A DNA stretch of 64,000 nt. Source: Thermococcus camini. Lineage in GTDB: Archaea; Methanobacteriota_B; Thermococci; Thermococcales; Thermococcaceae. The stretch spans positions 438,277 to 502,276 of the forward strand of contig NZ_LR881183.1 of the NCBI RefSeq assembly GCF_904067545.1, read 5' to 3'. Below are positions 19,324-21,668 of this stretch, piece by piece. Below the pieces are notes generated by a model, which saw only the letters and a list, made by a program, of their open reading frames with translations, was not told where the DNA came from and did no database searches. Positions within the stretch are counted from its first letter, which is position 1, and the number at the start of each line of letters is the position of its first letter. Both the position numbers and the translations under genes were made by a program.

Positions 19324-20202
19324 ATGGAAGTAAGGTATCCCGCAGTTGCAGGCAGCTTCTATCCATCTGGGGATGCTCTCATCGAGATGCTTGAGGAGTT
19401 CTTGGGCGACCTGGGAGAGGAGGGGAGTGACAGGAGGATAACCGCTGGAGTTGCACCCCACGCGGGTTATATATTCTCGGGCTACACCGCATCGAGGACA
19501 TACAAGACAATCTTTGAAGACGGCCTTCCCGAGACCTTCGTACTCCTCGGGCCGAACCACACCGGCCTCGGCTCTCCGATAGCGGTCTATCCCTCTGGAA
19601 AGTGGCGCACACCGCTCGGTGACGTCGATGTTGATTCCGAGATGGCCAGAGCTATAGCGAAGCTCTCCGGTATAGCGGATTTGGACGAGATTGCCCACAA
19701 ATACGAGCACTCGATAGAGGTTCAGCTTCCCTTCATCCAGTATCTGGCCGAGAAAGCGGGAAGGGAAGTCAAGATAGTTCCAATAGCCCTCGGCATTCAG
19801 GATGAGGAGGTTTCTGAAGACCTCGGAAAAGCTATCCTTGAAGCCTCTAAGGAGCTCGGCAGGGACGTCCTCGTTATTGCCAGCACGGACTTCATGCACT
19901 ACGGAGCAATGTACGGCTACGTGCCCTTCAGAGCGAGGGCTGATGAGCTCCCGCACAGGATAAAGGAGTGGGATTTTCGCATAATAAGGAGGATTCTCGA
20001 CTTCGATGTTGGGGGCATGTTCAGGGAGCTCCGCGAGATGGGCCACACAATGTGTGGGCCGGGTGGAGTTGGAACTGCGGTGGTTTACTCCCGCCTTGCC
20101 GGAGCGCTTGAGGCGGAGCTGCTTCACTACACGACGAGCTATGAGGTGAGCCGCTCCACGGATGCCATCGTGGGCTACGCGAGTATCGTCTTCAAGCGGT
20201 GA
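19324..20202 (+). CDS. MEMO1 family protein
   Basis: The 292-residue protein begins [14 protein letters not shown] and contains the metal-site blocks [19 protein letters not shown] (about residues 42-60), [24 protein letters not shown] and STDFMHYG. A cysteine in GHTMCGPGG is also conserved. The fold is related to extradiol dioxygenases/LigB. It starts the isoprenoid gene run (MEMO, mevalonate kinase, isopentenyl phosphate kinase, IPP isomerase), a known archaeal association whose biochemical basis is unclear. Confidence 0.9.
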
Positions 20203-20239
20203 ACGAAAAGGCCATAAGGGGCTTTTCTTATTTCCTACC

Positions 20240-20548
20240 ATGCAGACCACACGCATTGGAACGCTTGAGGATGTTCAAAGAATCCTGCGTGCCCACAGGA
20301 AGGAACTGAGGGAGAAATACGGTGTTAAGCGTATTGGTATCTTCGGCTCTTATTCCCGAAACGAGCAGAGGATAGACAGCGACGTTGACATTCTCGTGGA
20401 GTTCGAGCAGCCCGTTGGGTTAATGACCTTCGTCTGTCTCCAGGAATACCTAGAGGAACTCCTTGGGGTCAAAGTTGACCTTGTAACCAAGGGCGCCCTG
20501 AAGAGACGCATTAGAGAACGGATTCTTAAAGAGGTGAAGTACGTATGA
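20240..20548 (+). CDS. mntA: MntA-type minimal nucleotidyltransferase
   Basis: The 102-residue MNT-fold protein has the polymerase-beta motif GIFGSYSRNEQRIDSDVDILVEF (about residues 33-55): GSYSR plus the metal-binding Asp-x-Asp (SDVDILVE). MntA proteins neutralise their HepT (HEPN RNase) partners by AMPylating the tyrosine of the RX4HXY motif. The gene ends in ATGA, overlapping a short HepT fragment. It sits as an insertion between MEMO and mevalonate kinase. The ATG follows a T-rich stretch; no strong Shine-Dalgarno site is seen, so it may be leaderless. Confidence 0.88.
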   Translation: MQTTRIGTLEDVQRILRAHRKELREKYGVKRIGIFGSYSRNEQRIDSDVDILVEFEQPVGLMTFVCLQEYLEELLGVKVDLVTKGALKRRIRERILKEVKYV

Positions 20549-20667
20549 GAGACAAGTTAATTCACGCTTATTTCGGTGTTGACCTCTCGCTTATCTGGTA
20601 CACTGTTCAGAACGAGCTTGACGATTTGGAAAACGTTATGAGAAAGCTTTTGGAGGGTCAAAGATGA
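20545..20667 (+). CDS. Truncated HepT (HEPN, DUF86) protein, 40 aa
   Basis: The 40 codons starting at ATG 20545 encode [20 protein letters not shown] followed by a short helix. This matches only the C-terminal third of HepT, whose usual size is above 100 residues. The RX4HXY motif is intact (Arg2, His7, Tyr9), so both the RNase residues and the AMPylation tyrosine are present. The two N-terminal helices are missing. GAGGTGA at 20531-20537 precedes the start. It overlaps mntA and mevalonate kinase by ATGA at both ends. It could be a degraded remnant or a functional mini-protein. Confidence 0.75.
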
Positions 20668-21668
20668 GGGTTCTGGCATCCGCTCCGGCTAAAATTATCC
20701 TCTTCGGCGAACACAGCGTCGTTTACGGCAAGCCTGCCATTGCCGCAGCAATAGACCTCAGAACCTATGTCTGGGCTGAGTTCAACGATAGAGGTGCAAT
20801 TAAGATAGAGGCCAAGGACATACGCGTCCCTGGTTTGACCGTTTCATTCTCCGAGGACGAGATTTACTTTGAGAGCGACTATGGTAAAGCTGCCGAGGTT
20901 CTCAGCTATGTCCGTCAGGCGATAGAGCTTGTTAGAGAGGAGGCCGATGCTAATGGGAAAGGGATTACAGTCTCGATAACGTCCCAGATTCCAGTTGGGG
21001 CTGGTCTCGGCTCATCTGCTGCCGTTGCGGTTGCGACCATCGGGGCGGTCTCAAAACTGCTCGGCCTTGAGCTGACCAACGAGGAGATAGGAAAGCTGGG
21101 TCATAGGGTCGAACTCCTCGTCCAGGGGGCATCGAGCGGTATAGACCCAACGGTTTCGGCCATAGGTGGCTTCATCCACTACGAGAAGGGGAACTTCGAG
21201 CACCTGCCCTTCATGGAGCTGCCCATAGTCGTCGGCTACACGGGTTCGAGCGGGTCAACCAAGGAACTCGTGGCTATGGTAAGGAGAACCTACGAGGAGA
21301 TGCCGGAGGTTATAGAACCGGTGCTCATAGCGATGGGCAAGATAGTCGAGAAAGCCCGGGAGGTAATAACCTCGGACCTCGATGACGAAATCCGCTTCGT
21401 CCAGCTGGGCAGGCTCATGAACATCAACCATGGTCTCCTCGATGCCCTCGGGGTCTCGACGAAAAAGCTCAGCGAGCTGGTCTATGCCGCGAGGGTTGCG
21501 GGGGCTATAGGGGCAAAGATAACCGGTGCCGGTGGTGGCGGCTGCATGTACGCCTTGGCTCCCGAGAACCAGAGCGAAGTGGCAACGGCCATAACGATAG
21601 CCGGCGGGACGCCGATGATAACGAGGATAAGCCGTGAAGGGCTTCGCATAGAGGAGGTTCTGCCATGA
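20664..21668 (+). CDS. mvk: Mevalonate kinase
   Basis: The 334-residue GHMP kinase has [22 protein letters not shown] at the N-terminus, the ATP-binding [15 protein letters not shown] (about residues 110-124), and the C-terminal motif [14 protein letters not shown]. It phosphorylates mevalonate for archaeal lipid isoprenoids. The ATG overlaps the HepT fragment stop, and its own stop overlaps the isopentenyl phosphate kinase start, so the run is tightly coupled. Confidence 0.96.

Follow-up and report, generated by a model that had tools for sequence, protein, structure and literature searches.

Introduction

The closest described systems are the type VII MntA-HepT (MNT-HEPN) modules, represented by SO_3165/SO_3166 and by T. 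cleftensis CL1_0070/CL1_0071, and for a Thermococcus pair AMPylation of HepT has been demonstrated biochemically (PMC7641770). The locus reported here resembles these modules in carrying an MntA with the G-S-x10-D-x-D motif beside the HepT motif R-x4-H-x-Y. It differs from them in being composed of an antitoxin and a stub that corresponds to HepT codons 73-112, the HEPN bundle being gone, and hence not of a working pair. Two further precedents bear on it. In the parts of the E. coli and Klebsiella surveys that use the term "orphan antitoxin" (PMC10790755, PMC7192599), the likeness is an intact antitoxin gene whose toxin gene has been lost; unlike the cases in those parts, the locus has kept a reading frame that joins the antitoxin to an essential gene with no relation to it, and this has happened repeatedly and with two module types. 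As to ATGA overlaps in archaea, strict termination-reinitiation has been described for 13 of 14 tested pairs, 9 from Haloferax (PMC6728339). The locus shares with those pairs the successive 4-nt overlaps with internal ribosome-binding sites, whereas its middle cistron is a collapsed toxin gene, reduced in relatives to as few as 9 codons. Its components, orphan antitoxin and translational coupling, are thus known, and a disarmed MntA-HepT whose stub is most probably a relay is a variant of both.

Results

The window, that is, the whole stretch of 64,000 nucleotides that was analysed, covers positions 438277-502276 of the 2,022,529-bp genome of Thermococcus camini (G000). A preliminary description had placed an MntA gene and a 40-residue C-terminal HepT ORF with R-x4-H-x-Y ahead of mevalonate kinase, joined by a GAGGTGA site and two ATGA overlaps. 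All of these are present (Table 1): both ORFs have Pfam matches, and the kinase scores above the cut-off of its NCBIfam equivalog. MntA matches NTP_transf_2 (PF01909) with E=4e-20 and 72.4 bits (cut-off 21), and its G-S-x10-D-x-D motif is conserved in an alignment of 15 orthologues; with NF047752 it reaches 44.9 bits, below the cut-off of 60. The 40-aa ORF matches the HepT-like family PF01934 with E=6.5e-10 and 39.2 bits (cut-off 23.5), covering only positions 86-119 of the 120 in the profile. Its motif reads R2-DKLI-H7-A-Y9, so that the start adjoins R-x4-H-x-Y as had been described, but at one codon before the arginine and not at two. The possibility of a chance ORF is ruled out by this Pfam match and by full-length HepT relatives in the same slot, while the recurrence of this 40-codon ORF in a second genome, G003, together with other stubs elsewhere, makes a sequencing or assembly error unlikely.

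Table 1. Features at the mntA-hepT-mevalonate kinase site, in window coordinates
Feature	Position	Strand	Remarks
Upstream neighbour	19324..20202	+	Conserved ORF, presumably a Memo-type protein; in most of the 85 genomes an orthologue flanks the site
Predicted BRE/TATA promoter-like stretch, CGAAAAGGCCATAAGG	20204..20219	+	Directly 3' of the upstream stop codon; inferred
mntA, complete, 102-aa MNT adenylyltransferase antitoxin	20240..20548	+	G-S-x10-D-x-D motif intact (GSYSRNEQRIDSDVD)
GAGGTGA, Shine-Dalgarno-like site for the stub	20531..20537	+	Within the C-terminal codons of mntA; conserved in the type-1 loci listed
ATGA stop/start overlap, mntA-stub	20545..20548	+	Read from the sequence
hepT remnant, 40 codons	20545..20667	+	Codons 73-112 of intact HepT (Pfam, alignment to intact relatives)
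ATGAGAGAC, remaining copy of the putative direct repeat	20545..20553	+	Repeat comparison with intact hepT
GGAGGGT, mevalonate kinase ribosome-binding site	20652..20658	+	Within the codons that end the stub (L-E-G-Q-R)
ATGA stop/start overlap, stub-mevalonate kinase	20664..20667	+	Read from the sequence
Mevalonate kinase	20664..21668	+	NCBIfam NF003036, 495.5 bits (equivalog, cut-off 403); TIGR00549, 282.1 bits

The 40-mer lacks the whole HEPN helical bundle of more than 100 residues. According to an AlphaFold2 model (mean pLDDT 89.6) computed for an intact relative, HepT helices lie at residues 4-22, 27-32, 34-53, 56-61, 67-71, 73-81 and 86-111, and the stub would retain only the last two, namely the short helix bearing R-x4-H-x-Y and the C-terminal helix. 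Since the long helices 4-22 and 34-53 of the bundle are absent, RNase activity has presumably been lost and a working HEPN RNase is very unlikely to form from the 40-mer, which is not a HepT family toxin. A phmmer search with intact HepT found no PDB sequence match at E<=0.01. As for AMPylation of HepT, which another Thermococcus pair has (PMC7641770), it is at most predicted for the MntA of the window.

When 10 mntA-bearing and 14 module-free genomes are listed side by side, CGAAAAGGCCATAAGG stands at the place of CCAAAAGCCACATAAACTTT in module-free relatives. The assignment as a promoter-like stretch rests on this listing; scanning for sigma-70-type promoters says nothing useful about an archaeon. 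Module-bearing genomes have such a stretch upstream of mntA, at the place taken by AAAAGCCACATAAACTT ahead of the kinase in module-free genomes, and no promoter-like element is visible before the kinase in the module-bearing ones. A terminator-like hairpin with a T-rich tail (20207-20226) overlaps the promoter-like stretch before mntA; two such hairpins were found against 0.8 expected, and this one is possibly due to chance.

Of 94 Thermococcaceae genomes, 85 yielded a mevalonate kinase, and in each of these 85 the upstream stretch, up to 2 kb, was read. A scan of named genomes gave mainly MAGs. MntA of the kind seen in the window (type 1) lies directly upstream of the kinase in 20 of the 85, accompanied by a full HepT in 11, a frameshifted one in 1 and a stub in 8. 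The preliminary description had asked whether Thermococcus relatives carry an intact hepT and had considered a degraded toxin. Full-length HepT of 111-114 aa does occupy the same slot in 11 genomes (G058, G030, G049, G010, G035, G007, G017, G074, G081, G093 and G082), and the 40-mer is therefore a deletion product, which alignment derives from a normal HepT of 112 aa. The 11 intact loci have the same ATGA to mntA, and their hepT stops at or just before the kinase start.

The type-1 stubs measure 40 codons (G000, G003), 33 (G054, G043), 22 (G019) and 9 (G021, G008, G031), and six of the eight, those of 9, 22 and 33 codons, lack R-x4-H-x-Y. All keep an open frame from the ATGA of mntA, the length from stub ATG to kinase start being 2 modulo 3. 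That ATGA is kept in every intact and reduced type-1 locus except the frameshifted G086. In G019 the start of the kinase ORF lies 4 codons upstream of that in the query, with the overlap at this upstream ATG. The one stretch common to all stubs is the ribosome-binding site of the kinase: their terminal codons encode a tail like L-L-E-G-Q-R, where the DNA has GGAGGGT (GGAGGGC in G054), and we assign this function because the stretch lies upstream of the kinase in most genomes, module-free ones included. Beside its 9-codon stub, G031 (L058) has what is by its sequence a chimaeric antitoxin: the N-terminus of this MntA deviates (MNIDDAVRKILQ) and resembles that of the second MNT family, and the C-terminal part is type 1.

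A second MNT/HepT pair is found at the kinase site in other species, with an MNT of 124 or 138 aa and a HepT of about 140 aa that also belongs to PF01934; both modules are present in G058, G010 and G049. This type-2 module has likewise given stubs, of 14 codons (G012, G006), 18 (G005), 28 (G002) and 36 (G040), each beside an intact MNT and with ATGA at both ends, so that stop/start overlaps are conserved in all 8 type-1 and all 5 type-2 stubs. In G082 (L118) and G093 (L107) the second toxin has been removed without trace and the stop of the second MNT overlaps the mntA start by ATGA (4 nt), leaving two antitoxin genes in tandem before a single HepT.

The origin of the 40-codon stub can be proposed from a direct repeat. 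Intact hepT has ATGAGRGAY at its start and again at codon 73 (M-R-D-P and M-R-D-R), as a perfect repeat of 9 nt in G058, G010 and G093 and of 8 nt in G035. A deletion between the two copies would have removed the first 72 codons, yielding exactly a 40-codon ORF that starts with M-R-D at the motif; this repeat-mediated mechanism is deduced from the sequences compared. The exact start at R-x4-H-x-Y requires no selection, because the motif itself contains the Met-Arg-Asp of the repeat. An additional ATGAGA at stub codon 32 (ATGAGAAAG) could be the source of the M-R-N-L-L-E-G-Q-R stub of G021 and G008. The two genomes with the 40-codon ORF, G000 and G003, share four nucleotides exclusive to them among the eight relatives compared, and a tree of 119 nt groups them with weak support (65/73). 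A single origin of the deletion is conceivable, but the trees of mntA and of the fragment lack the length to establish it.

Divergence values also bear on how the module travels. Between G010 (L047) and G058 (L040), which have mntA-hepT at the same site, dS is 0 for mntA and 0.485 for the kinase, which is, as far as these values tell, a recent between-species transfer at that site. Between G008 and G021 it is 0.31 for mntA and 1.21 for the kinase. As mntA dS is far below kinase dS in both pairs, the module recombines between species. Values for the upstream neighbour in most pairs, and the G031 mntA row, were left out of the dN/dS comparisons, their unaligned lengths being different.

Toxin loss was also followed at the other MntA loci of the genus, in a survey anchored on MntA that was continued downstream regardless of HepT. 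Toxins there have decayed through stops and frameshifts as well, and large HepT deletions are in frame in 5 of 12 cases by hand count, near the 1/3 expected by chance. We discarded the idea that HepT decay elsewhere is always out of frame: it came from a set picked by homology to the 40-mer, which was biased. One of these loci belongs to the same genome outside the window (L221, G000:C1:965180-965449) and has an intact MntA with an in-frame HepT remnant of 11 codons (MSKEKMVKELC) after it and, it seems, no coupled gene further on. Stubs of this sort, 12 codons long, occur in G055 (L218) and G036 (L229). In G057, L185 (G057:C2:256800-258900) appears to be an in-frame fusion, joined at a shared E-K-Y, of the first ~22 residues of MntA with the C-terminal part of HepT including R-x4-H-x-Y, and no separate antitoxin gene was seen at this locus.

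Discussion

We think that the stub is probably a toxin relic kept mainly as a translational relay into mevalonate kinase. The MntA-HepT pair would stand between the promoter and the kinase gene, making the kinase the third cistron of an mntA-hepT-kinase chain linked by 4-nt stop/start overlaps. Ribosomes finishing mntA would restart at the stub ATG, and those finishing the stub would restart at the kinase ATG, aided by GGAGGGT in the last stub codons. Deletions that break the frame would then lower kinase synthesis and be purged, and only in-frame collapses would persist. Translation of the stub, and the dependence of kinase translation on it, are what we infer; the coupling may be no more than partial, since the kinase itself has a good ribosome-binding site.

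The relay is supported by the fact that, counting each distinct stub once, 9 of 10 classes at the kinase site have kept the frame (binomial P=3.6e-4 for an expected 1/3), although the classes were scored by hand and are not strictly independent events. The in-frame share at this site differs from that at the other MntA loci (Fisher P=0.026). A plain pseudogene, in which the toxin was lost by deletion and the stub is unselected, its open frame being due to chance and to an in-phase repeat, seems to us rather unlikely. Loss of toxin with retention of antitoxin by frameshift, stop or deletion is common at other loci of these genomes, where in-frame deletions are about as frequent as chance would have it, and no selection is required for the 40-mer taken alone, as the two ATGAGRGAY copies are in phase. 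What this explanation does not readily accommodate is that stub classes of two modules are in frame at the kinase site with both 4-nt overlaps exact (P about 4e-4), and that the 33-codon stub has stayed in frame despite free change of its amino acids. That stub, compared between G054 and G043, has 5.5 synonymous and 16.5 non-synonymous differences and is near-neutral; near-neutral amino acids in an open frame are the pattern predicted by a relay. Among the options raised beforehand, persistence because a deletion would disturb kinase translation is thus the best supported, with nine distinct stubs in two modules and the double ATGA relay kept.

Some observations count against the relay. At the kinase site itself, the remnant of G080 is out of frame and ends 29 nt inside the kinase, G086 has frameshifts in mntA-hepT and G034 an N-terminal HepT piece. 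In-frame stubs also occur at loci without an apparent coupled downstream gene (L221, L218, L229), and between G000 and G003 the 40-mer has a low non-synonymous rate, which is not what a pure relay would predict. A further exception at the site is the frameshifted MNT of G068.

The rate just mentioned is an argument for a working peptide, a reading that we hold to be unlikely; such a peptide might be a minimal substrate of MntA, a sink for AMP or a binder modulating intact HepT copies elsewhere. Over 40 codons, 9 synonymous and 5 non-synonymous changes separate G000 from G003 (dN/dS about 0.10), and neutrality would have P of 5e-4 to 5e-3 depending on transition bias, and of no more than 0.013 without the ends, provided that the deletion is shared. 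If a single deletion did precede the split of these genomes, the peptide has therefore been under constraint. Both carriers retain R-x4-H-x-Y intact and share their four exclusive nucleotides, and G000 has intact HepT copies elsewhere, with MntA genes adjoining (L031 and L032, two full MntA-HepT pairs). Nevertheless, the single origin is weakly supported by the short tree, and the pattern could equally come from separate deletions at this repeat, or from recombination with an intact hepT that refreshed the sequence, in a module that moves between species, as in G010 and G058. In the solved S. oneidensis complex, HepT N7 and R59 assist in holding the ATP analogue, and R70 is in contact with the attached AMP (PMC7641770); judging from position, the equivalents of all three would fall in the deleted part. 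Other lineages have discarded the motif entirely. It had been suggested that the fragment was selected as a substrate or sink keeping the exact motif: as a general rule this is rejected, since most stubs (six of eight in type 1) are without the motif and the repeat explains the start; for the 40-mer itself, which has fewer non-synonymous changes than expected, it could still apply. More specifically, that the 40-mer is selected as a free-standing AMPylation substrate or regulator, tuning MntA toward the intact HepT copies and relaying ribosomes as well, appears quite improbable; if true, it would connect isoprenoid (membrane lipid) synthesis with a network of RNase toxins.

Whichever way the stub is kept, the antitoxin beside it is conserved. 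Between G043 and G054, which have the same stub, mntA shows dS 0.46 and dN 0.078 (ratio 0.17), and the second MNT has dN/dS 0.047 between G012 and G006, both with the 14-codon stub. As judged by these ratios, MntA stays under purifying selection after toxin loss. It is even kept in G008 and G031, two nearly complete genomes in which no PF01934 match was found at E<=1e-5. Retention of MntA without HepT points to a second role of the antitoxin, and possible reasons would be protection in trans against an incoming HepT, an unrelated adenylyltransferase role or its position as first cistron in the coupled chain.

The site offers a natural series, from the full toxin to stubs of 40, 33, 22 and 9 codons, and of 36, 28, 18 and 14 codons in the second module, which shows how a toxin gene inside an essential operon can be disarmed while the reading frame stays. 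It also makes testable the question whether selfish modules become hard to remove when an essential downstream gene depends on their translation. MntA (20240-20548) additionally has matches to PADLOC models of phage-defence candidates, PDC-S09 (best E=3e-32), a possible clue to the persistence of toxin-less MNT genes.
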